Assembly: GCA_937867415.1 (NCBI GenBank)
Contig: CALMKO010000056.1
Span: 1 to 64,000 of the forward strand
DNA length: 64,000 nucleotides
Direction: 5' to 3'
From: an uncultured Verrucomicrobiota bacterium
GTDB taxonomy: Bacteria > Verrucomicrobiota > Verrucomicrobiia > Verrucomicrobiales > Akkermansiaceae
Part shown: in pieces, positions 14,296 to 47,700 of the stretch
Position numbering within the stretch: position 1 is the first letter of the stretch
Layout of the letters: the number at the start of each line of letters is the position of its first letter
The notes under the pieces: model-generated
The model's database searches: none
What the model was told of the DNA's origin: nothing
Seen by the model: the letters and a program-made list of their open reading frames with translations, nothing else
Position numbers and translations under genes: made by a program

Positions 14296-14433
14296 TGCTG
14301 GGGTCTTGTATCGCTGACAGACCAGCGGGAGACAATCGCGAAATGGACGCACCTCAAGGACGCCAGCCAACTCCAGGGAAATGCTCCGACATCCGGATAT
14401 CTAGAATCCGCGCAAAATCCCGCTGCCCACCAC

Positions 14434-16468: not shown

Positions 16469-17026
16469 GTGAGCGGTTTGTTTACTCATTCCGAGTCGGA
16501 TTCGTCCCGATGGTTGCCGGAGGTTTATCAGGAACTCCGCAACCTGGCGGCCGCACGCATGGCCCGCGAGGCAGGTGGCCTGACGCTCCAGCCCACCGCC
16601 CTTGTCCATGAGGCGTGGATGAAGCTGACTCTTCGCGATGACCGGAAATGGAACAACCGTGAGCACTTTTTCCGCTCTGCCGCCCTCGCCATGCGCCGGA
16701 TCCTGGTGGAAAGCGCCCGCCGCAAACGCCGCCGCAACGAGTTGCTTGAGTCCGACCCGCCACTCGACAGCAAACGGGAATTCCTTGCCGAGACACCCGC
16801 GGATCGATTGCTCCGCATCGATGAAAACCTGAAGAAACTCGAAGCCCAGGACCCGGAAAGCGCCCGCGTGGTCATCCTCAAATTCTTCGGTGGTCTGACC
16901 AACCGCGAGGTGGCCGAATCCCTCGGCGTGACCGAACGCACCGTCGAACGGCACTGGGCCTATGCGAGGTCCACACTCCTGACCATGATCCAGAATGACG
17001 AGAATCCTTCCGAGAACCCGTCATGA
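16469..17026 (+). CDS. ECF-type RNA polymerase sigma factor (TIGR02999-like)
   Basis: ELRNLAAARMAREAGGLTLQPTALVHEAWMKL; sigma4 HTH GGLTNREVAESLGVTERTVERHWAYARSTL. Confidence 0.92.
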   Translation: MSGLFTHSESDSSRWLPEVYQELRNLAAARMAREAGGLTLQPTALVHEAWMKLTLRDDRKWNNREHFFRSAALAMRRILVESARRKRRRNELLESDPPLDSKREFLAETPADRLLRIDENLKKLEAQDPESARVVILKFFGGLTNREVAESLGVTERTVERHWAYARSTLLTMIQNDENPSENPS

Positions 17027-19236
17027 AAGACGCTTCCCGCGAGATCGAGATGCTGTTGTTCGACGCCGCCCTGCAGATCGCAGATGACCCGACACGCATT
17101 GCATTTCTCGATCAAACCTGCGCCTGCCGACCGGAGATGCGCAGCCGCCTCGATCAATTGCTCGCTGCTCATCGAAAGAGCGATGCCTATTTTTCAGGAG
17201 TCACAGAAGCCTGCTCGGCGATTTCAGAACCGTTTCCGGAAAGCCCCCCGCAGGATGATGGCCAGGATGGCATCGACCACATCGGCCCCTATCGGCTTTT
17301 GGAACGCATCGGCGAGGGCGGTTGTGGCGTCGTTTATCTTGCCGAGCAGGAGTCTCCGGTGAGGCGCCGGGTCGCCCTCAAGGTGATCCGCCTCGGCATG
17401 GATACGGAACGCGTGATCGCCCGTTTCGAGATCGAACGCCAGGCGCTCGCCATGATGGACCATCCGCACATCGCCCACGTGCTCGATGCCGGCACCACGC
17501 CGACCGGTCGGCCCTACTTCGCCATGGAGTGGGTGCGCGGGCGGAAAATCACGGATTTCTGCGATGAGAACCGGCTATCCATCCGGCAGCGGATCGAGTT
17601 GTTCATCGAGGTTTGCCAAGCCATCCAGCACGCCCATCAGAAAGGCGTGATCCACCGCGACATCAAGCCGTCCAATGTTCTCGTCTCGATGCAGGACGGC
17701 AAGCCACAACCCAAGGTCATCGATTTCGGAATCGCCAAGGCCACCGATGGCTCGGACTTGACGCCCGGTCTCACGGATGCGGGCGGTCTGCCGATGGGCA
17801 CGCTCGCTTCGATGAGTCCGGAACAGGCGGCCAGCGGCGGCATCGATGTGGATACCCGCAGCGATGTCTACAGCCTCGGCATCCTGCTTTATGAGTTGTT
17901 ATGCGGCCGCCCTGCATTCGATCCTGCGGAGCTCGCCAGCGCAGGTTACCCGGCAGCGATTGACACTCTGCTGCACCGTGAGGTCCGGCCTCCATCTTCG
18001 ATCATCGCGGATTTGCCACCCGATGGGACGCTCTCACTCGCCGCCTGTCGCGGCACCGATCCGGGCAAATGGATCTCCGCATTCAAGGGCGACCTCGACC
18101 AAGTGACCATGAAGTGCTTGGAAAAGGACCGCTCTCGCCGCTACGAGACCGTCAACGGTCTGGCCCTCGATCTGGAGCGCTTCCTCGCCAACGAGCCGGT
18201 GCTGGCCCGCCCGCAGAGCCGACTCTATCGGTTTCGCAAATTCGTGGATCGCAACCGCGCGGCCTGCGTTTCCGCCCTGCTCATCACGCTCACTGTCATT
18301 GCCGGCTTTGCCATTTCCACCGGCATGTATCTGCGGGAAAATGCCGCGCTCCGGGAACAACAACGCCTGCGCCAAGTGGCGGAAATCGCACGCGCCGCCG
18401 AGGCCCGCCTGCGCGAGCAAGCCCAAGCTCGCGCGAACGTTTCAAAAGCCTCGCTGCTTCTCAGCCAAGGCAAAACCGAAGAAGCCGATGCCGTGCTGCG
18501 CCAGACCCCGCTCGACACCATCGAGCCATCCCGGGAGGCCACCGGCGTGTTCCGCTCTTTGGGCGACTGGCATCTGATCCATCACCGCTGGAAGGCCGCC
18601 GCCGAATGTTACCTGCTTCTGCCACTCGCCAACCGTTTCATCCCGAGCGAACAAATCCCCGATACCGGAGACATGATCCGCACCGCACCGACATTGGTCA
18701 TGGCGGGCATGGATGACTCCTACGAAGCGCACCGCGCCCTGCTCATCGACCGTTTCGCTGAAACCACCAACTCCAATGCTGCCGAGCAACTCGTCAAAAT
18801 GTGTCTGCTCAGCCCCGCCTCGCCGGAACTGATGCAACGCCTTTTGCCGACGGTGGAATTCCTCAGAAAACAGTCGTCCATCGAAGGCCCCCGGATGGCC
18901 CTGTTGGTGTATACTGCTCTGGCGCTCTATGAAATGCGTGCCGCAAATCCAGCAGAAGCGATCCGCTGGGTTCACCAAGCCCTTCCGCAAACAGGGCAAA
19001 CTCACTCGATCGGCGCCGATTACCAGATTTTCCTGCGCTCCATCCTCGTGATGGCCTGCCGCCGAACTGGTGACATCGAGCGCTCGGAAGCAGAAGCCCG
19101 CAGCGTGCGCGAATTCGTGCAGATGCACGGCAAGGCCTTCGACACCCCAGGAGCACCCGATCGCACCTACTTCGTGCCGGTGATCGAGCGCGCCCTGGCC
19201 ATGACTCTCGCCCGCGAGGCGCTTGGGTTGGAGTAA
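17023..19236 (+). CDS. Membrane Ser/Thr protein kinase
   Basis: GEGGCGVVYLAEQ, VALKVIRLGMD, VIHRDIKPSNVLVS, DFGIAKA, TM helix AACVSALLITLTVIAGFAI; ATGA overlap with the sigma gene. Confidence 0.93.
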   Translation: MKDASREIEMLLFDAALQIADDPTRIAFLDQTCACRPEMRSRLDQLLAAHRKSDAYFSGVTEACSAISEPFPESPPQDDGQDGIDHIGPYRLLERIGEGGCGVVYLAEQESPVRRRVALKVIRLGMDTERVIARFEIERQALAMMDHPHIAHVLDAGTTPTGRPYFAMEWVRGRKITDFCDENRLSIRQRIELFIEVCQAIQHAHQKGVIHRDIKPSNVLVSMQDGKPQPKVIDFGIAKATDGSDLTPGLTDAGGLPMGTLASMSPEQAASGGIDVDTRSDVYSLGILLYELLCGRPAFDPAELASAGYPAAIDTLLHREVRPPSSIIADLPPDGTLSLAACRGTDPGKWISAFKGDLDQVTMKCLEKDRSRRYETVNGLALDLERFLANEPVLARPQSRLYRFRKFVDRNRAACVSALLITLTVIAGFAISTGMYLRENAALREQQRLRQVAEIARAAEARLREQAQARANVSKASLLLSQGKTEEADAVLRQTPLDTIEPSREATGVFRSLGDWHLIHHRWKAAAECYLLLPLANRFIPSEQIPDTGDMIRTAPTLVMAGMDDSYEAHRALLIDRFAETTNSNAAEQLVKMCLLSPASPELMQRLLPTVEFLRKQSSIEGPRMALLVYTALALYEMRAANPAEAIRWVHQALPQTGQTHSIGADYQIFLRSILVMACRRTGDIERSEAEARSVREFVQMHGKAFDTPGAPDRTYFVPVIERALAMTLAREALGLE

Positions 19237-19303: not shown

Positions 19304-19332
19304 TGAGCCGATTATTCTCTTTAATCGGCTCA
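19304..19332. promoter_or_regulatory. Perfect 11-bp inverted repeat overlapping the fic start codon
   Basis: TGAGCCGATTA-TTCTCTT-TAATCGGCTCA; additional half-site ATTCGGCTCA at 19279. Confidence 0.65.
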
Positions 19333-20438
19333 TGCTTTACAATTGGCAGCAAGCGGACTGGCCCTGCTTTCGCTACGAAGTCGCCGGGCTGACCGATCTT
19401 CTGCTGGTCTTTGTGGACCAGGCAGGCCGAGTTGGAGGTCTTCTCGAAGGGCTGCCGGACGATCTTGGCAGCGAGGCGATGCTGGATTTGATGATCTCCG
19501 AAGCCATCCGCTCATCCGCCATCGAAGGCGAAACCTTGGATCGGGAGGCTGTCATGTCATCCATCCGCAACCGGCTCGGTCTTAATCCCGTGCCCCAGCC
19601 GGTCCGCAGCCGTCTGGCCGATGGCGCCGGCCAACTGATGGTTGCCGTCAGGGAACATTTTCGCGAGCCGCTCTCCGCTGAAACCCTATTCGAGTGGCAC
19701 CGCATGCTGCTCGAAGGCAGCACCTCGCTGCGTGTGGGTTGCTGGCGCTCGGGAAGCGAGCCCATGCAGGTGGTTTCAGGGCGGATCGACTGCCCTACTG
19801 TCCACTTCGAGGCTCCTCCATCGGAAAGCGTCCCCGCCGAGATGGAGCGCTTCATTACGTGGTTCAACCAAACCGCTCCCGGCGGTCCGCTTGCCATTTT
19901 CCACGCACCCGTGCGCTCTGCCATTGCTCACCTATATTTCGAAAGCATCCACCCCTTCGAGGATGGCAACGGCCGCGTTGGCCGCGCTCTCGCGGAAAAG
20001 GCCCTCTCCCAAGGCCTCGGCAGGCCGGTCTTGATGAGCCTTTCCCGCAGCATAGACGCCAACCGCAGTGCCTACTACGCCGCCTTGCAAGCGGTCCAGC
20101 GTGGCAATGAGATCACTCCGTGGATCCGCTGGTTTGTTAGCACCGTCGTGGATGCCCAGCGCGATGCCGGCGAACAAATCCAATTCCTCCTCAAGAAAAC
20201 CCGCTTTTTCCAGCAGCTCGGTCCGGTCCTGAACGACCGCCAGACAAAAGTCCTGCGCCGCATGTTCGAAGCAGGTCCTGCCGGGTTCATCGGCGGTATG
20301 AACGCACGCAAATACGTCGCCCTCACCGGTACATCCAAAGCCACCGCCACTCGTGACCTCCAGCATCTGACCGATCTCGGCGCTCTCACCTCCATCGGCG
20401 GCGGCCGCAGCACCCGTTACGAACTGCGGTTTCATTGA
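19332..20438 (+). CDS. Fic family protein (putative AMPylase) with C-terminal winged-HTH-like segment
   Basis: Fic motif HPFEDGNGRVGRAL; N-terminal inhibitory motif SSAIEGE; C-term ALTGTSKATATRDLQHLTDLGALTSIGGGRSTRYEL. Confidence 0.93.
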   Translation: MLYNWQQADWPCFRYEVAGLTDLLLVFVDQAGRVGGLLEGLPDDLGSEAMLDLMISEAIRSSAIEGETLDREAVMSSIRNRLGLNPVPQPVRSRLADGAGQLMVAVREHFREPLSAETLFEWHRMLLEGSTSLRVGCWRSGSEPMQVVSGRIDCPTVHFEAPPSESVPAEMERFITWFNQTAPGGPLAIFHAPVRSAIAHLYFESIHPFEDGNGRVGRALAEKALSQGLGRPVLMSLSRSIDANRSAYYAALQAVQRGNEITPWIRWFVSTVVDAQRDAGEQIQFLLKKTRFFQQLGPVLNDRQTKVLRRMFEAGPAGFIGGMNARKYVALTGTSKATATRDLQHLTDLGALTSIGGGRSTRYELRFH

Positions 20439-23900: not shown

Positions 23901-23959
23901 TTTGCCTCTGGAGGGGCAGATACCGGGGCGGTGCACGATCGAGTTTCCGCGTGCCGCCC
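23901..23959 (+). repeat. Structured dispersed element, copy A
   Basis: TTTGCCTCTGGAGGGGCAGATACCGGGGCGG...GTTTCCGCGTGCCGCCC; aligns to 43844..43905. Confidence 0.6.
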
Positions 23960-23979
23960 GCATTTCAACATTCGACATC

Positions 23980-26931
23980 ATGACATCCACCTGTTTCCGA
24001 GCGCTGCCTGCCCTCGCCGCCGCCCTATTGAATATTTCTAACACCTTGGCGGTGGACATCCCCGCCCTGACTTCACCCGATGGCCGGATCGCCGTATCGG
24101 TGGATGACAGCGGCGGCTTGTCCTATTCCGTGCAACTCGACGGCGCACCGCTATTGGTAAAGTCGAATCTCGGCCTAACTCTGTCGGGTGGCACCCAGCT
24201 TGGCATGCAGCCGGAAACCATCACCGCCGCGGTGCAATCGCATGACTCGACCTGGCAGGATCCTTTTGGAAAATCCTCCACGGTGCGCGATCAATACCGC
24301 GAACTCCGCGTCCGGCTCAGCGAGCCACGCCCGGCACCTGCCGCAGCGGTGGTGTTCGAGCTTCATGTCCGCGCCTACAACGACGGCGTGGCCCTGCGTT
24401 ACGCGTTTCCCGAGGCCGCGAGCCCGGGGCCATTCACCGTGACGGGCAACCTCACCGAATTTCTCTTCACCGGCGACCACCGCGCATGGATCGGCGGCGG
24501 CGCGGATGCGGAGTGCCTCTATCCGGAAATCCGCCTCAGCCAGATGCCCGGCGACCGTCGCATCCTGCCGCTGGTCGTCGAGGCCCCGAACGCGGTCGTC
24601 GCCGTGGCCGAGGCCGATGCGCGCGATTGGGCCGGCTCGATGCTGGTCTCGACCGGCAAACCCGGTGCCTTTGGAGCCAAGGCCTCGCTCGTCTCCCAAG
24701 TCCAGTCGCAGTCCCCGCGCCAGTCGCCATGGCACGCGTTGATCATCGGCCGCAACGCCGGTGATCTCACCGTTTCCACCATGCTGCGCAATCTGGCCAC
24801 GCCATCCCAGATTGCAGACACTTCGTGGATCAAACCCGGCATCTCCGCTTGGGACGTCTGGTGGACCGGTCGCAATCCCTACTGGCCCCAGCACAACGGT
24901 CTTTATGCCCGCGGCAACACGCAGTCGCACAAGGATTTCATCGACTTCGCCGCCGAGATGGGCTGGCCCTACATGCTCGTCGATTGGTTCTGGTATGATC
25001 AGGAAAGCAGCGATCCGCAAACCGCCATCAAGCCCTTGTCGCACATCGACATGCCCGCCCTCATGGCCCACGCCGCATCCAAAGGCGTGAAACTCATCCT
25101 CTGGGTGAATTCGAAAAACATCCCGTCGATCGGCGCGGAAACCTTGTTCACCACCTACAAACAATGGGGCGCCGCCGGGGTGAAAATCGACTTCTTCCAA
25201 AACAACGGCTCCCAAGGAACGGAGAAGTGGATGGAGGAACTCGCCGCCGCCGCCGCCAGCCACCAGCTGGTGGTGGATTTCCACGGGGTTTACACACCCA
25301 CCGGCCTTTCACGCACTTGGCCGAACGTGCTCACCCAGGAAGGCGTGCTGGCAGTCGAATACGTCAAGCTCGGGAACAGCTTCACCCCGGAACACATGAT
25401 GCGGCTGCCCTTCACCCGCGGGTTGTTAGGCCCGGCCGACGTCACCCCGGGGGCTTTCCTCAACGTCCGTCCCGACCAATTCGCCCCCAATTCGGTGCCC
25501 TCCAAGGTCATCGGCACCCGCGCCCGGCATCTGGCTTTCGCCATGTTGATCGATTCGCCCTACCTCTGCATGGCCGATGCGCCGGAAAACTATCGCGAAG
25601 AGCCCGGCCTCAACTTCTTCCGCAAACTCCCGACCACCTGGGATGAAACGCGCGTGCTGTCATCCGGCCTGATGAACCACCTCGTGCAGGCCCGCCGCAA
25701 AGGCAATGGTTGGTGGATCGCCGGCATGAATCTGGACCAGCCCTTGGAACTCACCCTCAACCTCGATTTCCTCGGCGATGGAAACCACACCCTCACCACT
25801 TACAGCGACACGCCGCAGTCCATCCAGCAACCCACCTCGCTCGCCGAACAAACCCGCGTGGTGAAACGTGGCGACACAGTCACCGTCCGCATGGAAAACA
25901 CCGGAGGCTTCGCCGCCACGATCCTGCCGGTGGTTCCTCCGGCCAAAGCCCGCGTCATCAGCTATAACTGGGATTTTTATGGATCCATTCCCAGCGACGC
26001 CGTTTCCACGGCCGGAGTGGTCCCCGCCGCGCATTGGAACAACTCCTACCCCGCCCGGAACTGGCCGTCGCTCGTTGCCGACCCGACCACCAGCGTGAAG
26101 GATCACTCCGGTGCCGCCACCACGCTCGACTTCCATTTCAGCCACAGCGCCCAATGGCATCTCGACCCGCAGGCCACTTCGCCTAGCCGCGATGCCGATG
26201 GCTCCTACAACAAACGCCTGCTCAAGGGCTATGTGGACATGTCGGGAGGCAATCCCCAAACCCTCACCCTTTCGGAAATCCCTTACGCCCAATATGACAT
26301 CTATGTATATCTCAGCTCGGGAACAGCCAACCGGGAGGGCTATGCAACGGATGGAACGAGCAGCTTCTATTTCCGCACCGGCGGCAGCGGAGTCATCAGC
26401 GGCGATAACGCCGTGCTCATCCAGGCCACCGAAGCCAGCGACCTGCCCGTCAACGCCACCGCCACCTATGCCCGGTTCACAAACCTGACCGGATCCAGCA
26501 AAAACATCACCGTCTATGCGGCAGGCAATGCGGGTATTGCCGGTTTCCAAATTGTCGAGATCCTTGACTACGACCTCTGGAAAAGCGCCAGCGGTGTGAC
26601 GGGATCCATGTCGGATGACGACGATGGCGACGGCCGACCGAACTTCGAAGAATACGCATTCGGTCTCAATCCCACCAACGGCTCCTCAGTCAACCCGATC
26701 GCCGTCGAACTCAACAAGGCGACCGGCACTTTCCGCTACACCCGCCGGCTCCAGAGCAAAACGGGACTCAGTTACAGCATTTGGACCTCCCCCAATCTGG
26801 AAACCTGGACAGAGGACACGGGCAAGCAGGAAAGCATTCCAATCCCCAACGACAATGTCGAAACCGTGCCTGTCACGTTGTCATCGCTACCCACCGCGAC
26901 TGCATTCTTTGTCCGGGTGAAAACTCCCTGA
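23980..26931 (+). CDS. GH97-like glycoside hydrolase with two appended C-terminal modules
   Basis: [55 protein letters not shown]-term modules match the 20671 protein. Start re-assigned to [17 protein letters not shown]. Confidence 0.88.
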
Positions 26932-27024
26932 TTCCGCATTCATCATCTTCATGATTTGCGGAAAGGACTGTTCCGTTTGCCCTCTCCGGCCCGCAGACTC
27001 TGGCCCGTCACCTGATCGATTGCC

Positions 27025-27044
27025 TGTCGCATGCTTATGCGACA
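27025..27044. promoter_or_regulatory. Palindrome TGTCGCAT-GCTT-ATGCGACA (site 2 of 4)
   Basis: Perfect 8-bp arms; 47 nt upstream of the GH95 ATG. Confidence 0.75.
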
Positions 27045-27091
27045 AAGTCCCGGCAATAGGAACCTGCTTTGCTACGTATCTGTCAAAGAAC

Positions 27092-29944
27092 ATGCGCTCC
27101 ACATCCATCTCCCTGATTTGCTGCCTTGTGCCGTCCATGATGGCAATGGCCGCCCCTGATGCCTCCATGACCTACTGGTTCAAGCAACCGGCCAAAAGCT
27201 TTCTGGAATCCTGCCCCATCGGCAACGGCCGCCTTGGCGCGATGGATTTCGGCGGCACCGAGGAATGCCGGATCGTGCTCAACGAGTCGTCGGTTTGGTC
27301 CGGCGGCTACTACGAGGGCAACCGCCCGGATGCCTTCCAGAACCTTGCCAAGGGCCGTGAGTTGTATTTTTCCGGTGATGTGCCGGCTGCGCAGAATTGG
27401 TTCGCCCAAAAATTCCAATACCCGGACGGCGTGCGCGGCTGGTGGAATGAAAACCAGTTCGGCTGCTATCAGATTCTATCCGATCTCTATCTCCGCTTCC
27501 CGATCAAGGGCGGCCGCACGGCGGTCACCTCACCCAGCGGCCACGCCCTGGGTGACCGGGGCGGCAGCAAGGCATCCGTGATGATGATGGGTGGCATCGG
27601 CGCCCCGGCCAATGCAGAGGAACAGGAGGATGATCACACGATCCACTGTGCCACCGATGGCAACCCGCGCACCAAATGGTGTGCACTTCGCGAAAACAAG
27701 GACGTCGTCTGGCAGGTGCAACTGCCTGCCGCCAAAGAAGTCCGTGGCTATTCGCTCACCAGCGCCGACGACGTGCCCGGCCGCGACCCGGAAAACTGGA
27801 AACTCGAAGGCTCCCATGACGGCGCATCCTGGTCGCTGGTCGATCAACAGGTGATGCCCGCTCCCTTCGAACAACGTCACATGACGAAAAAATTCACTGT
27901 GTCGAAACCTGGGAAATATTTATACTATCGCTTCACCTTCGTCACCACCCGCGACAATTCATTTCAGCTTGGCGACCTCTCGCTCGACGGCGTGGACATC
28001 ATCACCCGCCCGCCGATCCCTGCGGACTACCGCCGCGAACTCGATGTGATGACCGGGCTCGTGACCACGCGGTATAGCCAGGATGGCGTGACCTTCACCC
28101 GCAAGATGGTTGCCTCGAAAAAGGATGAAGTCATCCTGCTCCACCTCAGCGCTGACAAGCCGGGCGCATTGAACTTCACCGCCTCCCTCTCTCGCAATCG
28201 CGATCCCAAGATCCGCATGGAGAATGGCATCCAAATCCTCGAGGCCCAACTCGCCTTCGACAAACCCGGCGGTGGCGGCGTGGGCACCAAAATGGCCGCC
28301 GTGCTCAGCGCCCAGGCCAAGGGTGGCAAGGTCAGCTCCAGCCCCGAGGGTTTTCGTTTTGAAAATGTCGATTCCGTCACACTCTATGCCTCCGGCGCGA
28401 GCAATCTGTTAGGTGGTGATGCGGTGGAAAAAGCCAGCGCCCCGCTCGCCGCCGCCATGCAGCGCGGACCACAACCCATCATCGCCGATTCCACCGCCGA
28501 CCACGCATCCTATATGAATCGCGTGGACTTGAAACTCCCCGCTGGTCCGAATTCCCATCTCTCCACACCCGAGCGCGTCGCCCGCAACGAAAAACAAGCG
28601 GACCCATCACTGGCCGCGCTCTATTTCCAATTCGGCCGCCATCTGCTCGTCTCCGGATCGCGCCCGGACTCGCCATGGCCGAACAACCTGCAAGGCATCT
28701 GGGCCGAGGAATACTCCACTCCGTGGCGCGGCGATTTCCACACCAACATCAATCTCCAGATGAACTATTGGCCCGCAGAGGTGACCAACCTCGCCGATTG
28801 CCACCTGCCCATCATGGAGTTCCTCGAAGGCATGGCCCGCGAAGGCGAACGCACCGCGGATATCTATTACAACGCTCCCGGTTGGCTCGCCTTCCACATG
28901 CAGAACCCATGGTATGAAACCGCCTGCGCCAGCATCGGCGTGGCCGCTTCACCCGTCAGCGGCGCATGGCTTGTCCAACATATATGGACGCAATATCAAT
29001 TCACCGGAGATAAGGAATTCCTCCGCCGTTACTATCATCTCCTGCGGGGTGCCGCCATCGGTTGCCAGGCCATCCTGATCGAGGAACCCACTTCCAAACA
29101 ACTCGTCACCCTGCCGTCCAGCTCGCCGGAGAACGCCTACTGGCACGAAATGCCCGATGGCAAAAAAGTCCACGCCTGGCTCTGCGCCGGTTCGACTTAT
29201 GATATGCAAATCATCCGCGGCCTGTTCCTCGCCACCGAGCGCGCCGCCCAAGTGCTTGGCATTGATGCGGAACTCACCAAGGAACTCGCCGCCACCCGCG
29301 CCCGCCTCGTGCCGACCAAACTCGGTAGCGACGGACGCATCCTCGAATGGGAAAAAGAAGTCGGCGAACCGGAAATCCACCACCGCCACGTCTCCCACCT
29401 CTGGGGCCTCTATCCAGGCGATGAAATCAGCGTCAACACACCGGAGCTTTTCGCCGGTGCCCGCAAGTCTCTCGAAACCCGCGGCGATGCCTCGACCGGT
29501 TGGTCGATGGGTTGGAAAGCCTGCTTCTGGGCGCGGCTGTTAGATGGCGACCGCGCCGACCGCTTGATCTCGATGCTCATCGGCCGCGGTGCCGGCAACC
29601 TCTTCTGCCTGCACCCGCCGTTCCAGATCGACGGCAATTTCGGAGGCACCGCCGCCATCGCGGAAATGCTCGTGCAAAGCCACGAGACAATGGATGAAGG
29701 CAGAACTACGAAGTCTGAATTTAACATTCAACATTCATCATTCATCATTTCTTTACTCCCCGCCCTGCCCAAGGCTTGGAAAGACGGCAGCGTCAAAGGC
29801 CTGCGCGCCCGCGGCAATGTCTTCGTCGATCTCGAATGGAAGGACGGCCAAGTCACCAAATACCGCCTCTCCTCGCCCACTCCCCGCCCGGTGAAAGTCA
29901 AAATCAACGGCAAGCTGGAATCGGTAAACGTAGAGCAAAAGTGA
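27092..29944 (+). CDS. GH95-like alpha-L-fucosidase/galactosidase with inserted discoidin-like domain
   Basis: [75 protein letters not shown]. Confidence 0.92.
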
Positions 29945-30001
29945 GGCAGCCTTGGATCAACGAGCGTGTTTCCGCAGCTGCCGGAAACGCGGAGTTGTGC
30001 A

Positions 30002-32914
30002 ATGACTCCAACTTCGCTAACTCCTGTCATACGTTTCCATAGGTCCGTGATCCGCATTTCTCCAACATTCCTCGGTCTTGCTGCATGGCTTGCTGTCTTG
30101 TGGGGTCCGCTTCACGCCGCGACCAAGACGCTTGCGGCCACGCGAATCGCGGAGGATGCGCGTTCGCTTGAAGTTCCCATTGCCGGGCTGGGTCCGATCC
30201 AATGCCAATGGGCGGCCACCATCGAAAAGACCGGGATCGTTCAGCGTTTGGAGTCCGGCGCGGCCAGTCAGACATTCAAACCCGAGATCCATGGCACGAT
30301 GGCCGACGGCATCACGGTGACGATTCCATCACCGGAAACGGAGGCCGAATTGTTGTTTCGCATCCGACTTGATGGAAGAATGGCCCTGTGCGCTCGCGCA
30401 GGGGTGAGAAATACCGGCAAGGGATCGTTCAAGCTCATCGATACCACAGCGCTTCATGCCCGGTTTCAGATTGGAAATCCGGAGGGCTGGCTGCTTACTG
30501 GACTGCATTCAAGGACTCCGGTTTTTGAACCTCTTTCAAACATTGGAACGGGAACCCGGATCCACGAGCAGGGCTCGCTCTATCAGCCGGATGGCACGGG
30601 CTTTGTCTTTGGCCCGGCGGGTGAACCCGTCACTTATGCAGAGTTTTCATTGAGCCACACGGAACCCGGCGTCTTCGGGATGGATGCGGTCACGCCCATG
30701 GACGGCGTGCGCGTCGATCCGGGAGAAACACGCTGGGGCCAGGAGGTCGCGCTCGTGATCGGGAAACCCCAAGCCGCGCTGAAAGAGTGGGCAGGGGCCG
30801 TCGCGCGATCCCATGGCGCGCGCACCGGCAAGGGCGCGCTGGCTGGCTGGAACAATTGGAACTATCTCTCCAAAAAAGACATCAGCAGCGAACTCGTGGA
30901 TGTCACCCAGGTCGTGCGGGAATCGGGCGGCCGGCTACGGCCCGGGGTGATCCAAATGGACTACAACTGGGGCGATGCGGATCTCGCGAAAACTCTCGCA
31001 TCCACCTGGGTTCCAGAGTGTCGGAAAAACATCACTGAAATTGGCGCGCGCTTCGGCACGCACATCGGTATTACCGGCCCCGGCTGGCCGGGACTGGCAG
31101 GACTACCCCAGTTGATAGAGACCATCTCCCGCTCGGTGAGCGCGGGTTTCGGCTACCTGAAGGTTTTCTATCCGCCCGGCACGGTGAAGGGAGACGGTCG
31201 GAGCACCGCCTTCGAAATCTATCGGGAACACTGGGCCGCCATCCGCAAGGCGGCGGGTGAGGAAACCTATCTGCTTTTCTGTGACTACGAACCCAACCGC
31301 GCCGCAGTCGGCTGGGTCGATGCCAGCCGGGGGGGACCAGATGCCGACCGCGGCAGAATCCGTGCGGCGATCCCCTCCGCCCTTCGCGCCTATCCACTGC
31401 ACGACCGTTGGTATGCGGTGGACAGCGACAGCTTTTTCACCGGCACGGACATCGCCAACATCAGCCAAATCGACGGCAGTTGGCCGCTCGTGCGCACCTG
31501 GCTGAGCATGACCGGGCTTTCCTGCGGCGCGGCGATCACCTCGGACCCCTGGTATTGGGAGGATTTCAAACCCTACTGGCGCAACGTCGAGGTGCTCACG
31601 CCGCCAGCTCTCGAACGCACGGAGGTTCTCGACCTCGGCACGGACAAGGAATGGCCACGACTGTTAGGTCACGTCCGCCGCGAGTGGGGAAACTCAACCG
31701 TGGCCTTGCTCTGGAACCCGGGCGTGACCGAGCGAACGGTGACTTTGGATTTCGCCAAGGCCGGTATGGATCCGCTGAAACGATACGCCGTTTGGTCGTT
31801 CTGGGATGATCGTTACCTCGGAATTGCCCAGGGCTCGTGGACCACGCCGCGGCTCGGCCCAGCCGCCTCGCAGCATTTGGTATTCACCGCGCTGGATTCC
31901 GCTCCGAAACGACCGGCCTTGATCGGCTCGAACCTTCACATCTACTGCGGTGCCGCCGAGATCAAGCGGGTGAAGGCCAAGCGCTCGTCTTTCTCGTTAG
32001 AGCTCACCGATGCCGGCGCGCGCGATGGCGACCTTTTCCTCTACAGCCACATGCAGCCGGTCCTTTCCGCGGCGGTCGGTTGCACGGTGAGTGGCATCAC
32101 CAGCGCCGGTGAAAACGTCTGGCGGGTCAGCCTGCATGACCGCAAATCAGGTGTGCTCCAGCGCATCGACATGGACATCCCCCAGCCCACCTCTCGCCAA
32201 CCTTGGTTCTGGGCCTTGCTCTCCACCGCTGTCCTCAGCCTGCTGTTCGCCGCTTGGCGCTACGTGGTCGGTCTGCGCCTCGAACGCGCGCGGGCACTCG
32301 ACCAGGAACGCGCCCGTATCGCCCGCGACATCCACGACGACCTCGGTGCCAGCCTCACCCACATCGCCTTGTTAGGCGAACTCGCGCAAAACCACATCGG
32401 CCATCCCGAACGCACGCGCACGCATGTGGACGACATTTTCCGCGCCGCCCGCAAACTCACGCGCTCGGTGGACGAGATCGTCTGGGCGCTCAATCCGTCC
32501 AACGACACGCTCGCCCGCTTCGCCGCCTATGTGGGCGATTTCACCCAGGATTTCCTGCAACCTGCGGACATTCATTGCCGACTCAGCTTTCCCGCCGAGT
32601 GGCCGGAGCGCACGCTGCCGCCGAAAACTCGCCACGATCTTTTCCTGGTGATCAAGGAGACGCTGCACAACATCGTCTCACACTCCGGCGCGAAAAATGT
32701 CCGCCTGGAAATCACCCTCGATGGCGCCCTGCTGCGCGTCACCATCGGCGACGACGGCCACGGTTTTGATCCGCAATCCACGGTGCTCGGGCGGCCCGGC
32801 GGCGGCCACGGGCTTGCCAACATGCGCCAGCGCATGCTAGAAGTAGGCGGCACGCTGGACATCCGCAGCGCGCCGGGCGAAGGTACCACCGTAATTCTCG
32901 AAGTGAAACCATGA
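30002..32914 (+). CDS. Sensor histidine kinase (HisKA_3/NarL type) with extracellular GH27/GH36-like domain
   Basis: GWNNWNYLSKKDIS...VIQMDYNWGDAD...GYLKVFYPPG TIM-barrel-like region; TM PWFWALLSTAVLSLLFAAW; RARIARDIHDDLGASLTHIALLGELAQ and GHGLANMRQRMLEVGG. Confidence 0.85.
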   Translation: MTPTSLTPVIRFHRSVIRISPTFLGLAAWLAVLWGPLHAATKTLAATRIAEDARSLEVPIAGLGPIQCQWAATIEKTGIVQRLESGAASQTFKPEIHGTMADGITVTIPSPETEAELLFRIRLDGRMALCARAGVRNTGKGSFKLIDTTALHARFQIGNPEGWLLTGLHSRTPVFEPLSNIGTGTRIHEQGSLYQPDGTGFVFGPAGEPVTYAEFSLSHTEPGVFGMDAVTPMDGVRVDPGETRWGQEVALVIGKPQAALKEWAGAVARSHGARTGKGALAGWNNWNYLSKKDISSELVDVTQVVRESGGRLRPGVIQMDYNWGDADLAKTLASTWVPECRKNITEIGARFGTHIGITGPGWPGLAGLPQLIETISRSVSAGFGYLKVFYPPGTVKGDGRSTAFEIYREHWAAIRKAAGEETYLLFCDYEPNRAAVGWVDASRGGPDADRGRIRAAIPSALRAYPLHDRWYAVDSDSFFTGTDIANISQIDGSWPLVRTWLSMTGLSCGAAITSDPWYWEDFKPYWRNVEVLTPPALERTEVLDLGTDKEWPRLLGHVRREWGNSTVALLWNPGVTERTVTLDFAKAGMDPLKRYAVWSFWDDRYLGIAQGSWTTPRLGPAASQHLVFTALDSAPKRPALIGSNLHIYCGAAEIKRVKAKRSSFSLELTDAGARDGDLFLYSHMQPVLSAAVGCTVSGITSAGENVWRVSLHDRKSGVLQRIDMDIPQPTSRQPWFWALLSTAVLSLLFAAWRYVVGLRLERARALDQERARIARDIHDDLGASLTHIALLGELAQNHIGHPERTRTHVDDIFRAARKLTRSVDEIVWALNPSNDTLARFAAYVGDFTQDFLQPADIHCRLSFPAEWPERTLPPKTRHDLFLVIKETLHNIVSHSGAKNVRLEITLDGALLRVTIGDDGHGFDPQSTVLGRPGGGHGLANMRQRMLEVGGTLDIRSAPGEGTTVILEVKP

Positions 32915-33558
32915 CACGCAAAAACAAAGCGGAAACCCTGGCCATCGCCGTCGTGGAGGACGATCCGCGGGTGCGCAGCAGTCTCATCGAGATTCTCAGC
33001 CAGGACTCCGGCTGTCGGTGCGTCGGCGATTACGCCAGCGGTGAGGACGCAGTCGTCGGGCTGGTCAAACACTCGGCACGCATCGTGATCATGGATATCC
33101 ACCTGCCCGGCATGGACGGCGTGGAATGCGTCCGCCAACTCGCGCCCATTTGTCCGGACACGCAGTTTCTCATGCTCACCGTGGCGAAGGATTCGGACAA
33201 TCTGTTCAACGCGTTGGCCGCCGGAGCCTCCGGCTACCTGCTCAAGCCGGTGCGGGCGAAAGAGTTGCTCGATGCGGTCCGGGATGTGGATCAAGGTGGC
33301 GCTCCGATGACCAGCAGCATCGCCCGCCGGGTGGTGGCGGCGTTTTACCGCAAGCCGGCGGCTCCCAAGGGGGAATTGCTTTCCGAGCGCGAGCAGCAAG
33401 TGCTGAAACTTCTCTCCGATGGCCTGCTCTACAAACAAGCCGCCTCCGAAATGGGCGTGAGCGTCAACACGCTCTGCGAATACATCCGCCGCATCTATCG
33501 GAAACTCCAGGTCCATTCCCGCCAGGAGGCCGTCGATCACTATCGCAAGCACCGTTGA
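32911..33558 (+). CDS. NarL/LuxR-family response regulator
   Basis: Receiver IAVVEDDPRVRSSLIEIL...IVIMDIHLPGMDG; HTH LSEREQQVLKLLSDGLLYKQAASEMGVSVNTLCEYIRRIYRKL; ATGA overlap with the kinase. Confidence 0.95.
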   Translation: MTRKNKAETLAIAVVEDDPRVRSSLIEILSQDSGCRCVGDYASGEDAVVGLVKHSARIVIMDIHLPGMDGVECVRQLAPICPDTQFLMLTVAKDSDNLFNALAAGASGYLLKPVRAKELLDAVRDVDQGGAPMTSSIARRVVAAFYRKPAAPKGELLSEREQQVLKLLSDGLLYKQAASEMGVSVNTLCEYIRRIYRKLQVHSRQEAVDHYRKHR

Positions 33559-33670: not shown

Positions 33671-33812
33671 GGATTTCCGCAGAGGGGTTGCGCAACTCAG
33701 GGCGCGTGTATTTCCTGACAGGGCAACCCACATTGCTCATAAAATCATGACGGGGAGGTTGCAAATCCAGCCAGCCTTCGCCCCGAGTCATTTTGCACGC
33801 AAAGCCCATTCC

Positions 33813-36800
33813 ATGAAACCCATCTCCCTGATTCCAAAGCTCACGGCCATGTTGGCCTTGGCGTTTTCCATTCTCCCGGCAAGCGCTGACAACTCGATCC
33901 TTGCCAAGGATTTCCTCCAACCACCCGCCGCCACCAAGCCGCGTTGTTATTGGTATTGGTTTGATGATCACGTCAGCAAGGAGGGCATCACCCGCGATTT
34001 GGAGGCGATGAAACGCGTCGGCATCGGCGGAGCCTACATCGGCATCATCGGTGGGGCCATCGGCAAGCGGACGGAACTCAAGCCCAGGCCGCTCACCGAT
34101 CCGTGGTGGGGAAATCTCGAACACGCCGTGCGCGAGGCCACGCGGCTCGGTGTGGACATCGGGCTTTTCAACTGCCCGGGTTGGAGCCAGTCGGGCGGTC
34201 CGTGGGTGAAGCCCCATCATGCGATGAGGTATCTGGTTCAGGAGGAGATCAGGCTCCAGGGGGCGCAACGATTCACCGGCAAAGCACCCGTTCCAAGCGG
34301 GAAGAAAGGAGAAAACTTCCAATCCGTGGCCCTGCTCGCCTTTCCCGCGCCCGAGGGTGACGACGTCGTGGTGCCGGTGACTGGAAAGAAAGGCAACAGC
34401 GTGAGTTTTGCCACGGATGCGCCCGTCACCGTTTGCAGCATCGTCGTCGACCCCAAAGAGGTGCTCAACACGCAGGCCGAGTTGCTTGCCTCGGAGGACG
34501 GCGAAGAATTCCGCCTGGTTCGAAAATTCGCCGTTGCCCGCACCACCCTCAAACACGGGCTGGGACCGATCTCCCTCGCGCCGGTCGCGGTGTCGTTTCC
34601 ACCTGTCACCGCGCGCTATTTCCGGCTCGATTTCACCGCCAAGGATCTGCCGTTCTCGGCGGAGAAATCATTGGGTGAGATCCGTCTATCCCCTGCCGCA
34701 CGGGTCGAGGACTTCGCGGGAAAAGCCCTGCTGAAGTCGCATGAGACCAGCGTACCTCCCTTCAACACCTACGTCTGGCCACCCGCATCGGATACCGACT
34801 CGAAGTCACTCGCAGTCGATCCGTCCCGCGTTGTGGATCTCACCGGAAAAATGCAATCAGATGGCACGCTCGTATGGGATATCCCGCCGGGAAACTGGAT
34901 CCTGCAACACGTCGGCATGATACCCACCGGCACCATGAACAAGCCTGCCCCGCCCGGCCTGATCGGCTTTGAGGCGGACAAAATGAATCGGGCGCATCTC
35001 AAGCCACTCTTCGACGGTTATGTCGGTGAATTGCTGCGCCGCCTCACGCCCGCCGAACGGAAGTCTTGGAAATACCTCATCGCCGACAGCTATGAAACCG
35101 GTCTGCAAAACTGGACCGACGGCCTGCGCGGGGATTTTCAGAAAACCTACGGTTACGATCCACAGCCCTACCTGCCGGCCATTTACGGACGGGTCGTCGG
35201 CTCGGCGGACCAAACGGAGCGTTTCCTCTGGGATCTCCGCCGTTTGGTCGCGGATCGCATCGCCACCGAATACGTCGGCGGCTTGCGCGATCTCACCAAC
35301 TCGCACGGCATGAAGCTCTGGTTGGAAAACTACGGCCACTTCGGTTTCCCTTCCGAGTTCCTGCTTTACGGAGCACACACTGATGAAGTGAGCGGCGAGT
35401 TTTGGCTCGGTCGCGGTCGCAATACCGTGGAAATCCGTGCCGCTTCGTCCGCCGCCCGCATCTATGGCAAATCCCCGGTCTGGGCCGAGGCCTTCACCGC
35501 CAGGAATCTTACGTTCCAAACCACCCCGCGCGATCTCAAGGTGCAGGGCGACTGGGCATTCTGCCAGGGAATCAACCAGTTCGTGCTGCACGTCTATGTC
35601 CACCAACCGAAGGAACAAAAACCCGGCTTGAATGCGTGGTTCGGCACCGAGTTCGATCGACATAACACCTGGTTCGAGGAGTCCAAATCCTGGATCGATT
35701 ACCAGCGCCGTTGTTCCGTGCTCTTGCAAGCCGGACAAGCGCTTGCCGACTTTGCCGTTTTCATCACCGAGGATGCGCCGAAAATGACCGGCCCCATGCC
35801 GCCGCCAATCCCGCCCGGGCACGATTTCGATTTCATCAATGCGGATGCGATTCTGCATCGTGTCTCCGTTAGCGACGGGCGCTTGGTGTTGCCCGGTGGT
35901 TCCAGCTATGCGGCCTTGATTCTGCCGGACTCCCCCACCATGCGCCCCGCAGTGGCCCGGAAAATCGAGGAACTGGCCAAGGCGGGTGCCAAAATCATCG
36001 GCTCGAAACCCACACGCTCGCCCAGCTTGCAAGGCTACCCGGACAGTGACGCGGAGACCCGCCGCCACGCCACTTGGGAGGCATGGCCCGATGCCGCCGC
36101 CCTCAAACTGGCCCCCGATGTGATCGCTCCGGCGGATTTTCTCTGGACCCACCGTCGCACGCCTGAGGCCGACATCTATTTCATCTCCAACCCCTCCACC
36201 AAGGTTCGCAGCGAGACACTCTTGTTCCGGGTCACCGGTCGCCCCGCCAGCCTCTGGAATCCGGTCACGGCCGAAATCCAATCCACTAGCCACAGCGAAG
36301 CCGATGGCCGTTCTTCGGTCGCCCTGCGCCTTCAGCCACAGGGATCCGTCTTTGTCGTATTCGGAAAGCTCCCCACCGAATTCGCGGCGTCCAGCTTTGC
36401 TCCCGCCAAGGAAATCCCTCTCAGTGGGCCGTGGCAGGTCGAATTCCCATCGCGGAATCTCGAATTCGCCGAACTCACGAGTTGGACCAAGCGCGAGGAA
36501 GAGGACATCCGTTATTTCTCAGGCAAGGCCATCTATACCAAAGAAATCACAATCCCCGATTTCACTCCAGGTGGTCGCGTCCAGATCGATCTCGGCCACG
36601 TCGAGTTGATGGCAACTGTCACCCTCAATGGCAAATCCTTCCCTACCTTATGGACCTATCCGTATCGGGTGGATGTGACTTCTGCAATCAAGCCCGGCAT
36701 GAACTCACTGCGCGTGGAAGTGGTCAACACCTGGCAAAACCGCTTGATCGGCGATGCCAGCCAGCCACCGGAAAAACGGGTCAGCTACATCCCGCACAAT

Positions 36801-36872
36801 CCCTTCAAGCCTGATTCGAAGCTTCAGCCTGCCGGGCTCCTCGGTCCAGTGCGCCTGCTTGCCACTGAATGA
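33813..36872 (+). CDS. GH106-like glycoside hydrolase (putative alpha-L-rhamnosidase)
   Basis: TKPRCYWYWFDDHVSKEGITRDLEAMKRVGIGGAYIGIIGG; C-term VQIDLGHVELMATVTLNGKSFPTLWTYPYRVDVT. The listed 33126 start is an unrelated-frame extension over the response regulator. Confidence 0.82.
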   Translation: MKPISLIPKLTAMLALAFSILPASADNSILAKDFLQPPAATKPRCYWYWFDDHVSKEGITRDLEAMKRVGIGGAYIGIIGGAIGKRTELKPRPLTDPWWGNLEHAVREATRLGVDIGLFNCPGWSQSGGPWVKPHHAMRYLVQEEIRLQGAQRFTGKAPVPSGKKGENFQSVALLAFPAPEGDDVVVPVTGKKGNSVSFATDAPVTVCSIVVDPKEVLNTQAELLASEDGEEFRLVRKFAVARTTLKHGLGPISLAPVAVSFPPVTARYFRLDFTAKDLPFSAEKSLGEIRLSPAARVEDFAGKALLKSHETSVPPFNTYVWPPASDTDSKSLAVDPSRVVDLTGKMQSDGTLVWDIPPGNWILQHVGMIPTGTMNKPAPPGLIGFEADKMNRAHLKPLFDGYVGELLRRLTPAERKSWKYLIADSYETGLQNWTDGLRGDFQKTYGYDPQPYLPAIYGRVVGSADQTERFLWDLRRLVADRIATEYVGGLRDLTNSHGMKLWLENYGHFGFPSEFLLYGAHTDEVSGEFWLGRGRNTVEIRAASSAARIYGKSPVWAEAFTARNLTFQTTPRDLKVQGDWAFCQGINQFVLHVYVHQPKEQKPGLNAWFGTEFDRHNTWFEESKSWIDYQRRCSVLLQAGQALADFAVFITEDAPKMTGPMPPPIPPGHDFDFINADAILHRVSVSDGRLVLPGGSSYAALILPDSPTMRPAVARKIEELAKAGAKIIGSKPTRSPSLQGYPDSDAETRRHATWEAWPDAAALKLAPDVIAPADFLWTHRRTPEADIYFISNPSTKVRSETLLFRVTGRPASLWNPVTAEIQSTSHSEADGRSSVALRLQPQGSVFVVFGKLPTEFAASSFAPAKEIPLSGPWQVEFPSRNLEFAELTSWTKREEEDIRYFSGKAIYTKEITIPDFTPGGRVQIDLGHVELMATVTLNGKSFPTLWTYPYRVDVTSAIKPGMNSLRVEVVNTWQNRLIGDASQPPEKRVSYIPHNPFKPDSKLQPAGLLGPVRLLATE

Positions 36873-37386: not shown

Positions 37387-37541
37387 GCATGACAGAGGCA
37401 CGGGCCTTCTATCATGGATCTCTGGAAGAACCGAGCCACGAACAAGCTCGGCCAAGTCAAGGTGCTGCCGACGTGCTGACGGTTGGCTGTTTTTTGAAAA
37501 AAGCCTTGCAATGATTCAAAATGATCTATTAATTGTTTCAC

Positions 37542-37976
37542 ATGAATCCAAAGCGAGTCAGTTATTGGGATCACATGCCGCCGGAATCCTCCATGATGGG
37601 TGAGCCTGAAGCGGCTTACATGATCGAGAAAGTCCGGGATGGACTCCCTTTCGCCGAATTTCACGCCTTGCAGGAAATGCTGGACGTGACGGAAGAACGC
37701 CTCGGAGCATGGCTCGGCATGTCACGAGCCACGCTGCACCGCCGGAAAAAGGCCGGCACCTTGGATCGCACCGAGTCGGACCGGCTTGTCCGCTACGCCC
37801 GCCTCGTTTCACATGCCACCGCCGCACTCGGCGGGATTGCTGGCGGCCGCTCATGGCTGACGGCTCCGGCCATCGCCTTCCATGGCGAATGCCCGCTGGA
37901 TTATGCGGATACTGAAATAGGAGCCCGCGAGGTGGACGCTTTACTCGGGCGTCTCGAACACGGCGTTTTCTCCTGA
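37542..37976 (+). CDS. Xre/MbcA/ParS-type antitoxin (DUF2384-like)
   Basis: LGMSRATLHRRKKAGTLDRTESDRLVRYARLVSHATAALGG; adjacent to RES toxin. Confidence 0.88.
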   Translation: MNPKRVSYWDHMPPESSMMGEPEAAYMIEKVRDGLPFAEFHALQEMLDVTEERLGAWLGMSRATLHRRKKAGTLDRTESDRLVRYARLVSHATAALGGIAGGRSWLTAPAIAFHGECPLDYADTEIGAREVDALLGRLEHGVFS

Positions 37977-37978
37977 TC

Positions 37979-38440
37979 ATGCCGCTTTTTTACCGCATCG
38001 TTCAGGAGCAGTGGGCAGCGAACGCGTTCACTGGCGAGGGCGCACGCCTCTATGGCGGACGCTGGAACACGCCCGGCACCGCGGCGGTCTATCTGGCGGA
38101 ATCCCGCGCGCTCGCAGCGCTTGAAATCCTCGTCCACGCCCCGCGTGAGGCCCTCCTGCTCAAGTGGATCGTGTTCGAGCTGGAAGTTCCGGATGCATGG
38201 ATCGACGAGGTGCCGCCGTCGAAGCTTCCCACGGAATGGCGATTGCGGCCCTCGTCCCGACAGGCGCAGAACTTCGGCTCCCGCTGGCTGCGGGATGATC
38301 AGAATCTATCCTTACTCCTGCCAAGCGTCGTCATCCCCGAGGAGCGCTCGCTTTTGCTCAATCCTCTCAATCCCCACATGCACGATCTGAAACCGGGCAA
38401 GCCGAAACCATTCAGCTTTGATCCGCGTCTGGCAGCTTGA
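37979..38440 (+). CDS. RES-domain toxin
   Basis: YRIVQEQW...GEGARLYGGRWNTPGTAAVYLAESRALAALEILVH. Confidence 0.92.
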   Translation: MPLFYRIVQEQWAANAFTGEGARLYGGRWNTPGTAAVYLAESRALAALEILVHAPREALLLKWIVFELEVPDAWIDEVPPSKLPTEWRLRPSSRQAQNFGSRWLRDDQNLSLLLPSVVIPEERSLLLNPLNPHMHDLKPGKPKPFSFDPRLAA

Positions 38441-44734: not shown

Positions 44735-47700
44735 TTACAGTTCCTGCGGGTAGAGCCAGCGGAACGAAACGACCTCGAATCTGCGGCCGAAGTTCTTGTT
44801 TGCGGCAAAGGTCAAATTGGGCACCCGCGTGGCGGGGGCATCGCCCGGATCTACGAAATCCGGCATCCGTTGCACGACTACCTCGCACCATGCCCGGGCA
44901 AGCACGGATTTGCCATCGGCGGACAAAGCCTCGCCATAAGAGCGGATTTTAAAGGTATCTCCCCGGACGGTGGCGATGGGTGCCAGCAGCATCATCAGGT
45001 CCCCCTGCGTCACCACTCCGGGTGACCCTTCACCGGTGAATCCATCCATTGCTTCCGGGGTCCGGACTCCCTGCTTGCGCAGCGCGATCATATCGGCGGA
45101 TTTGATGGTTCGGGAATCCATGTCGTGGGCTCCAGCATTGATTCCGGACTCGTCGATCGCCGTTTGCAGCAGTCCCGTGAGGCTATGAAGCTCTCCGGCT
45201 CGGGCCACCCGGCGGTTCACAAACTCCGCCAAGGTCAGTGGCGGCGCTTGGTCGAGTTTGCCGCGCTCGCGGATTTGGTTGACGATTTCGCGGGCGAGCT
45301 TGGTGATCTCATCGTCACTGAGGGCGCGGAATCCGGCCCAGCGGATCTGGCCGAGCAGATTGACATCCGGAGAAGTCTGGTTGGGCCCGGCCAGCGGCAT
45401 CCCCATGCGGACCAGTGGCGTCTGTTCTGCCTGGGTGAGGTTGGTTTTTCCCCATCCGTTGATGGTTTGGTCGCGGAGCGAAGAGAGCACCGCCCGCCAG
45501 GCATCGACCGAGGTGGAATTCACGTTGAAGGGGCCTTTCACGGCGAGGTGGCGGCCAAACTCGCGGGCGCGGTCTTTCTCGCCGAGCGAGGCGAGTGAGG
45601 AAACCAAGGAATTTGCCCGGGAGATCGGGCGGATCGCGGTGATGCGGGAGTTCAGTGCGGGTTTGCGTTGCTCGAACACATCCTGAAGCACCTCCTGCCA
45701 GGTGCGGGCCTGATTGGAGAGCCATGGCAGCGCAGGCAGGTCCGCGATGGAGGAAATGTAATAGCGGTCCCACAGGGAATCGTTGAGAAAATAGGAATGA
45801 TCCAGCGCGCGTCTCCCGGCGAGGCTGGGATTGACGACGGAGGCAGAGGGAATCAGCGGGTGGGCACGGGAGTTTCCAAAGGCATGAACGACACGCGGCA
45901 ACATGGATCCCGCGATCAGGTTGGCTGGCACCCAATCACCCAGCGAGGCCGCCGGCGCGATGGGGACACGATACATCGGGACATTGGTGACACCCTCGCT
46001 GGAGGTGCGGCTGGCACCAAAATACCCGCGCCCGAAGCCGGGGGTTCGCTCACCATCCGCCGCATCCCACTCGACCATCGGGGCGGTGGACCAGCCGGTC
46101 AGCTCGATGAGACGCAGGTCATGGGATTGATTGACCAGCCCGACCTGGCTCGTGAAGATGTCTCCGCCCTCGACGACCGGATTGTTGAATGCCCATGCCT
46201 TGCTGTCGTCCAGTTCATCCTTGGTGGTGCGGGCGGTCATCTCCAGCATGGCCATCGGTTTCTTCCCTCCTTTGTCACGGTCTTCCAGGCGCTGGAGGAG
46301 GTCGCCAGCCCTGAAGCGGCGTTCGATCACCGGCTTGCTGGCATCGGCGCGGATTTCCTGCGTGGCATTGCTGAATCGGAACCGATAGGTTCGCAGCATG
46401 TCCCGTGAGTTGTTGAAATTGGTGAAATCCTCCGCCTTTGCGGCCAGAAGGTCCACGCGGAAGGTATCGGGTTGGGAGGAGCCGGTGGTTTTTTCCGGTC
46501 TCATTTGCACCAGCAGCTCGTCATCGAAATGAATCATCGGATCGGCGACCCAGTGATTGGCTTTGTCTTCGAAAGAATAGAATGAGGTGGCGGGGCGCTG
46601 GCCGCTGTTGCCACCGCCTTCCATGCTGAGGTGGTTCATTTGAAGGCCGGCCCTGAGGTCCCAGCCGGGAACCGCTTCGACGCCCCATCGGTTGGCGCTG
46701 CGCAGATCCTGGTTTCCTGCCCCGGCCAAATCATCGGAGTTGAACCAATCGAGAAACTGCCATGGACGTCTTGGCTTCCATCCCCACTCCCATCCCCAGG
46801 TCCAATCCTTCTCCACTCTTGCGGAGAACACCTTGACCTCACCCGGTTGGAGATAAAGCTGGTTCCCTGCACTGTCGGATATGCCATCACTCAGATGGAC
46901 AGTGAAGTATCGCTGGTTGTTCCTAGCCGTATCATCCTGACCCAGACGGTTGAAGCGCCCCAATCCGTGGAATGAGTTGCTGTCATCCTGCCATTCCTTG
47001 CGCAACCAGGCGGTGACGCCATTGCTGACTTTCGCGATCCGGAATCCTACAGGCGGGTTCCAAACCCGAAAGCGCAGCTTGTCGAACCTCAGCGCAACAT
47101 CGTAGGGATTGTGCAAAGTGACCACCGCCTCATAAATCAGCATCGGATTGGCATATCTTCCGCGCTGACTGGCCGGAGCGAGGGCGAGCCGTGCTGAACT
47201 CGTCTCCGGATGGGTGACCAGTGAGAATACCATCTGGAGCTTGGCTATCGATGGCAGCAGGTTGGCGGTCGCCGGGGCGGCACTCAGGCCGGTCGCGTTC
47301 GGTCTGAGGGAGGCTGTCGTCTGGACAAAGGCTGGCCCTCCTGTGAGTTGTCTCATCGCAGGATCACGGAATTTTTGGGTGTGATTGTGGAGGAACGACC
47401 AGCGCGGCGCACCGGAATCGATCGTCTCATAAGGAGTCACCACGCCATCGAAAAGTTGCGGATCAAATGTGGCAGGTGACATCAACACGCTGAGATCCTG
47501 CTTCATCCCACCCGCTGCCGTGTCGGTGAGCAATCCGAGCGTGTGGGTGGTGAGGTCGTGGAACCGCCTGCGGATTTCCTCCCGGCCGTCTGGATTGCCC
47601 GGAATGGTGGCGGTTTCCAGGGAAATGAAGTTCTTCGGATGGCGCAGGTGATCGAGCGTTCCGGGTTTGATGATGTCGGCGCGAAATCGCGATGGGCCGG

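Follow-up and report, generated by a model that had tools for sequence, protein, structure and literature searches.

GH36-like sensor histidine kinases in Verrucomicrobiota: a probable family of pseudoenzyme glycan sensors

We analysed 64,000 nucleotides (the window) of a contig from an uncultured Akkermansiaceae bacterium. A sensor kinase reading frame is open from 29966 to 32914 (+), and an in-frame ATG at 30002 yields a protein of 970 aa consisting of a signal or anchor segment, a complete GH36-type ectodomain, a single transmembrane helix and a HisKA_3/HATPase kinase. The kinase and the response regulator downstream are surrounded by GH78, GH106 (two), GH43, GH97 and GH95 genes, as the preliminary description of this DNA had claimed for its hydrolase surroundings. 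The features are listed below with coordinates, strand and, in brackets, evidence.

8548-11448, +: GH78 alpha-L-rhamnosidase family
11635-14370, -: GH106 alpha-L-rhamnosidase family
14625-16337, +: GH43
23902-26931, +: GH97 (Pfam)
26951-29944, +: GH95 with F5/8 type C domain, directly upstream of the kinase (Pfam)
30002-32914, +: GH36-like sensor histidine kinase, 970 aa (ORF, Pfam, PDB match, family alignment)
30044-30121, +: signal peptide or N-terminal anchor, residues about 15-40 (hydropathy peak, sequence)
30122-30769, +: beta-rich N-terminal domain, homologous to that of stand-alone GH36 relatives (alignment, model strands)
30770-31636, +: degenerate GH36 catalytic domain, predicted TIM barrel, residues 257-545 (profile matches to Thermotoga maritima GalA, TmGalA; Foldseek)
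30959-30964, +: D320-Y321, equivalent to TmGalA Asp220 (kept) and Asp221 (C6-OH contact, lost) (alignments; contacts from PMC6089974)
31160-31168, +: K387-V388-F389, place of the K-x-D nucleophile motif, Lys325 kept and Asp327 replaced by Phe (PDB and family alignments)
31328-31342, +: R443 and D447, equivalent to Arg383 and the acid/base Asp387, both kept (PDB and family alignments)
31637-32206, +: C-terminal beta-sandwich (weak Melibiase_C match) and membrane-proximal beta-rich stretch (Pfam, alignment)
32204-32272, +: single transmembrane helix, kinase immediately after (hydropathy, alignment)
32306-32500, +: HisKA_3 dimerisation/phosphoacceptor domain, His778 (Pfam)
32633-32908, +: HATPase_c domain (Pfam)
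32911-33558, +: cognate NarL-type response regulator, receiver Asp62, GerE HTH (Pfam, downstream pairing in homologous loci)
33777-36872, +: GH106 alpha-L-rhamnosidase family, downstream

Several other genes of the window were recorded. An ECF sigma factor gene (Sigma70_ECF) overlaps a Ser/Thr protein kinase gene at 16469-19236, beside GH43, and this pair may be a further regulator of the cluster. A Fic-domain protein with DUF4172 is encoded at 19332-20438, between the Ser/Thr kinase and a gene of the PATR (Passenger-associated-transport-repeat) type. An Xre/MbcA-ParS type antitoxin and RES-domain toxin pair lies within the hydrolase region at 37533-38440, and the 1203-aa ORF at 44735-48346 (-) has no Pfam match.

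Hydropathy peaks of the sensor kinase at residues 15-40 and 733-758 mark the signal or anchor segment and the transmembrane helix at about residues 735-757, and no HAMP domain was found between this helix and the kinase. Pfam assigned HisKA_3 to residues 769-833 (E 3e-11) and HATPase_c to residues 878-969 (E 8e-13), and on the regulator (32911-33558) Response_reg (4e-23) and GerE (2e-14). The kinase carries the phosphoacceptor His and the HATPase_c domain with N and G boxes that identify a HisKA_3 sensor kinase, while the kinase-adjacent regulator has the Asp-bearing receiver and GerE HTH of the NarL type; phosphoacceptor His778, the N box, the G boxes and receiver Asp62 are all in place. The start of the regulator overlaps the kinase stop as ATGA. 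All of this agrees with the preliminary description, which had proposed a signal-anchor N-terminus with a transmembrane helix, a HisKA_3/HATPase kinase and a NarL-type regulator joined by an ATGA overlap.

Pfam was nearly blind to the ectodomain, with a sub-threshold Melibiase_C match (E 0.09) as the sole match. Searched against the PDB, the single ectodomain sequence matched TmGalA (1zy9) at E 1e-5, profiles built from kinase fusions alone matched it at about 2e-7, and a profile including stand-alone relatives matched it at 9e-25, with all 20 of 20 PDB matches of this last profile being alpha-galactosidase/GH27/GH36-type proteins. The match to TmGalA exceeds chance, and by this similarity to the GH36 catalytic domain (clan GH-D) the ectodomain family is GH36, as judged from sequence, nearest to TmGalA. 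The ectodomain had earlier been described as GH27/GH36-like; the profiles uphold the clan and fold family, and GH27 is to be dropped in favour of GH36.

AlphaFold was run on the full ectodomain with 7 sequences as input and on the barrel alone. Mean pLDDT values were low (57.6 and 53.9, respectively) because few sequences were available as input, and the fold assignment therefore leans on sequence profiles and Foldseek ranking. The first 25 Foldseek matches of the ectodomain model were all GH36-type glycosidases (E 1.8e-14 to 3e-9), at TM-scores of just 0.2-0.3 for a model with a pLDDT of about 58, and the barrel-only model gave weaker and more mixed glycosidase matches. The structural comparison proposed in the preliminary description ranked GH36 first, at pLDDT values of 54-58 and the low TM-scores just given; GH36 family membership follows from sequence, and the detailed fold, a (beta/alpha)8 barrel with N-terminal beta-sandwich, is predicted.

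In TmGalA, Asp327 is the nucleophile and Asp387 the acid/base residue (PMC6089974). In its product complex (PMC6089974), the C6-OH is contacted by Asp221, the C4-OH by Asp220, Trp257 and Lys325, the C3-OH by Lys325, Arg383 and Tyr191, and the C2-OH by Arg383 and Asp387. The ectodomain of the window protein contains the motifs GWNNWNYLSKKDIS (at residue 282), VIQMDYNWGDAD, GYLKVFYPPG (K387, V388, F389) and RWYAVDSDSFFTGTDI. PDB alignments and the family alignment concur on its catalytic positions. The nucleophile Asp327 is replaced by Phe389, so that the K-x-D motif of a GH36 enzyme reads K-V-F, and the acid/base residue is kept as Asp447. Lys387 and Arg443 correspond to Lys325 and Arg383, and Asp320 to Asp220, all three kept, while the C6-OH contact Asp221 is replaced by Tyr321 and Tyr191 by Asn287. 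Loss of the nucleophile at LKVFY, as proposed from the sequence earlier, is confirmed by alignment. The further comparison of both catalytic Asp residues gave a split result, with the nucleophile absent and the acid/base residue D447 present.

Profile and relative searches covered the family, order and phylum of the window as well as a second class, all within Verrucomicrobiota. They yielded 36 distinct GH36-like kinase fusions, counted as sequences and not as independent events, drawn from at least five families in two classes; L073, truncated where its contig ends, was left out of this count. The architecture, for which a search of other glycoside hydrolase-histidine kinase fusions had been suggested, is hence not a one-off. 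Its spread is patchy, with fusions in about 9 of 195 genomes of the window's family and 8 of 288 genomes of the second class, and several genomes carry at least four copies. L067, a relative in the window's genus, is from an Akkermansiaceae lake metagenome genome. A scan of genome contigs returned six close relatives only, a plasmid scan returned one distant haloarchaeal GH36, and no relative of the ectodomain was found in a scan of viral contigs. In one genome (G013) a tandem kinase-regulator-kinase-regulator arrangement (L070:4162-11496) consists of two pairs with differing pocket residues.

A maximum-likelihood tree was calculated from 35 fusions and 16 stand-alone relatives, leaving out the catalytic columns and the variable loop. 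All 35 fusions fall on one side of a branch with support of 100/100, and the fusion family has a single origin. Its sisters are two stand-alone secreted proteins (L074 and L082) with both catalytic Asp residues and an NPCBM domain; further stand-alone relatives branch outside this group. Judged by their residues, the stand-alone relatives look like active enzymes, and in G013 an intact one lies about 17 kb from two sensors. The C-terminal beta-sandwich and membrane-proximal region is common to the stand-alone enzymes, which stop at about its end, and in the alignment they end where the transmembrane helix of the fusions begins. The part from the transmembrane helix through the kinase of the window protein is 49% identical to another kinase of the same genome. 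Together, these two observations place the junction at the C-terminus of the enzyme. As part of an overall explanation that we consider likely, a secreted GH36 enzyme in its entirety, with beta domain, barrel and C-terminal beta domains, would have been joined to a transmembrane helix and kinase.

Because of a frameshift-like stretch at the nucleophile of L066, 35 of the 36 fusions are readable at the catalytic site. None of these 35 has both catalytic Asp residues; both are present in each of the 16 stand-alone relatives that entered the tree. The nucleophile Asp is kept in three fusions (L083, L084 and L176) and otherwise replaced by N, G, S, F, E, Y or Q; the acid/base Asp is kept in nine, the window protein among them. 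Parsimony requires at least three state changes for each of the two positions. Since some lineages keep one catalytic Asp without the other, separate inactivations after fusion are the simplest account: catalysis was apparently broken lineage by lineage through the loss of different residues, although reversion may also have played a part. Further, between beta3 and the nucleophile strand the fusions have 28-43 residues where stand-alone proteins have 65-87, a loss of about 35 residues from the beta3-beta4 loop.

At the 62 columns that are invariant in stand-alone relatives, the fusions show a median entropy of 0.37 bits, and the 12 most variable of them are mostly active-site residues or their neighbours. 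They comprise Asp221, Asp387, Asp327, Tyr191, Cys368, the Trp matched to Trp257 (an equivalence assigned by position in the alignment), positions next to Asp221 and to the two catalytic Asp residues, and a Trp a few residues past Asp221. Twelve different residues occur at the C6-OH position Asp221 across the fusions. Residues contacting the C3- and C4-OH are mostly kept, with Lys325 present in 34 of 35 fusions, Arg383 in 31 and Asp220 in 29. Trp187 is present in 35 of 35 and Trp190 in 29. dN/dS was 0.12-0.29 for four ectodomain pairs and 0.20 for one pair of the transmembrane-kinase part. Divergence centred on the pocket in this way fits a sugar pocket that was retained and re-tuned to different ligands, and not decay; the pocket is probably sugar-sensing and seems to have diversified within an otherwise constant protein.

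At all 31 of 31 fusion loci with enough sequence, the gene immediately downstream, on the same strand, encodes a NarL-type regulator. Neighbours at other fusion loci include GH95, GH78, GH29-like, GH2, GH116, GH43 and esterase genes. Carbohydrate genes are frequent beside fusions and not present at every locus, some neighbours being secretion, efflux or PATR genes. Part of the GH97 product of the window (23902-26931) matches many otherwise unrelated fusion neighbours, which points to an accessory module in common, probably the C-terminal third of the product. Genomes such as G000, G013, G167 and G153, among others, have at least 108-150 scored PATR repeat matches each, and some PATR ORFs run to thousands of residues; a link of PATR proteins to the fusions was dropped, given that PATR is abundant throughout the genomes. 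Going by its neighbours, a reasonable guess for the target of the window copy is a rhamnose-, arabinose-, galactose- or fucose-containing polysaccharide such as pectin.

Homology to GH36, the lack of a full catalytic pair, a single origin, pocket-focused divergence and constant kinase-regulator pairing were all observed for the fusions. They are best explained, with good though not full confidence, by a family of pseudoenzyme glycan sensors controlling nearby hydrolases, for which we infer ligand, signalling and regulon. Hydrolase-rich surroundings and the RsgI6 precedent discussed below speak for this reading as well, and the loci that lack carbohydrate genes speak against it. After fusion, catalysis would have been abolished and the old -1 subsite retained as a binding pocket, which then diversified. 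The ectodomain would bind, uncut, a sugar freed from or terminal on the polysaccharide attacked by the neighbouring GH78, GH106, GH43, GH95 and GH97 enzymes. The change on binding may reach the kinase by way of the beta domain next to the membrane and the one transmembrane helix, with phosphate passing from His778 to Asp62 of the NarL regulator, which in its phosphorylated form would alter expression of the hydrolase cluster. A broader version, to which we give even odds, is a receptor repertoire derived from one dead enzyme: a single fusion, lineage-specific inactivations and hypervariable catalytic and C6 positions on a conserved scaffold, such that each paralogue in a cell (several genomes carry four or more) would respond to its own sugar and activate its own set of hydrolases.

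The most serious rival, itself improbable, is that the GH36 fold binds a non-glycan ligand such as a protein partner or cell-envelope component, with the pocket as a relic. This would suit the variable catalytic positions and the loci where hydrolase neighbours are absent. However, Trp187 and Lys325 are almost invariant, Arg383 and Asp220 are mostly kept, and positions at the pocket rim vary much more than the scaffold median; a pure relic is not expected to combine such kept residues with pocket-specific variation. We rate somewhat lower still the chance that the ectodomain is an active glycosidase, perhaps slow or altered, making the protein a bifunctional enzyme-sensor. One catalytic residue does survive in some fusions (the nucleophile in L083, L084 and L176, the acid/base in nine including the window protein), and the GH10 domain of the RsgI6 sensor discussed below keeps very low activity, but the two Asp residues never occur together in the 35 readable fusions, seven different residues have replaced the nucleophile, and most of the beta3-beta4 loop is gone, as is the Trp matched to Trp257. 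That the fusion gene is decaying or mis-assembled and has no function, as the metagenome-assembled sources and the frameshift-like stretch of L066 might suggest, is already contradicted by conservation: 36 fusions are open across two classes, dN/dS stays at 0.12-0.29, kinase motifs are intact and regulator pairing is complete (31/31), so we give this reading hardly any weight.

Outside Bacteroidota, little is known of periplasmic sensors for complex glycans. The ancestry of the proposed glycan sensor is readable in that the same genus also holds intact sister enzymes, and the steps from enzyme to receptor are therefore testable by mutation in both directions in harmless environmental proteins. 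The pocket variants form a natural panel from which the sugar of each sensor, and hence the polysaccharide degraded by each cluster, might be read, and they may serve as sugar-specific biosensor parts.

In a literature search that covered few subscription papers, no glycoside hydrolase-derived or pseudoenzyme sensor was found described on a histidine kinase. The closest described case found for the fusion family is RsgI6 of Clostridium thermocellum, an anti-sigma-I factor with a GH10 domain that is only very weakly active yet binds carbohydrate (PMC4711584). Both are single-pass membrane proteins with a low-activity or degenerate hydrolase domain in the position of an extracellular polysaccharide sensor (PMC4711584; PMC12203970), but RsgI6 uses GH10 instead of GH36, its output is anti-sigma/proteolysis instead of a histidine kinase, and its hydrolase domain is C-terminal of the membrane helix whereas that of the window protein is N-terminal. 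TmGalA (PDB 1zy9, 5m0x) shares a homologous catalytic domain, with the equivalents of Trp187, Trp190, Asp220, Lys325, Cys368, Arg383 and Asp387 kept in the window protein, which differs in the loss of Asp327 and Asp221, a shorter beta3-beta4 stretch and the attached transmembrane helix and kinase. Reg_prop/Y_Y_Y HisKA_3 kinases of the same bacteria resemble it in their kinase core and in the order of large ectodomain, transmembrane helix and HisKA_3/HATPase, while those examined have beta-propeller/Y_Y_Y or unassigned ectodomains with no recognisable GH36. NarL/UhpA-type two-component systems likewise pair a HisKA_3 kinase with a NarL-type regulator, but their sensor domain is unrelated and the window pair scores below every NCBIfam equivalog cut-off. 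The window protein is thus homologous to GH36 without qualifying as a GH36 enzyme, and apart from its unusual receptor the kinase-regulator pair is a standard HisKA_3/NarL system.
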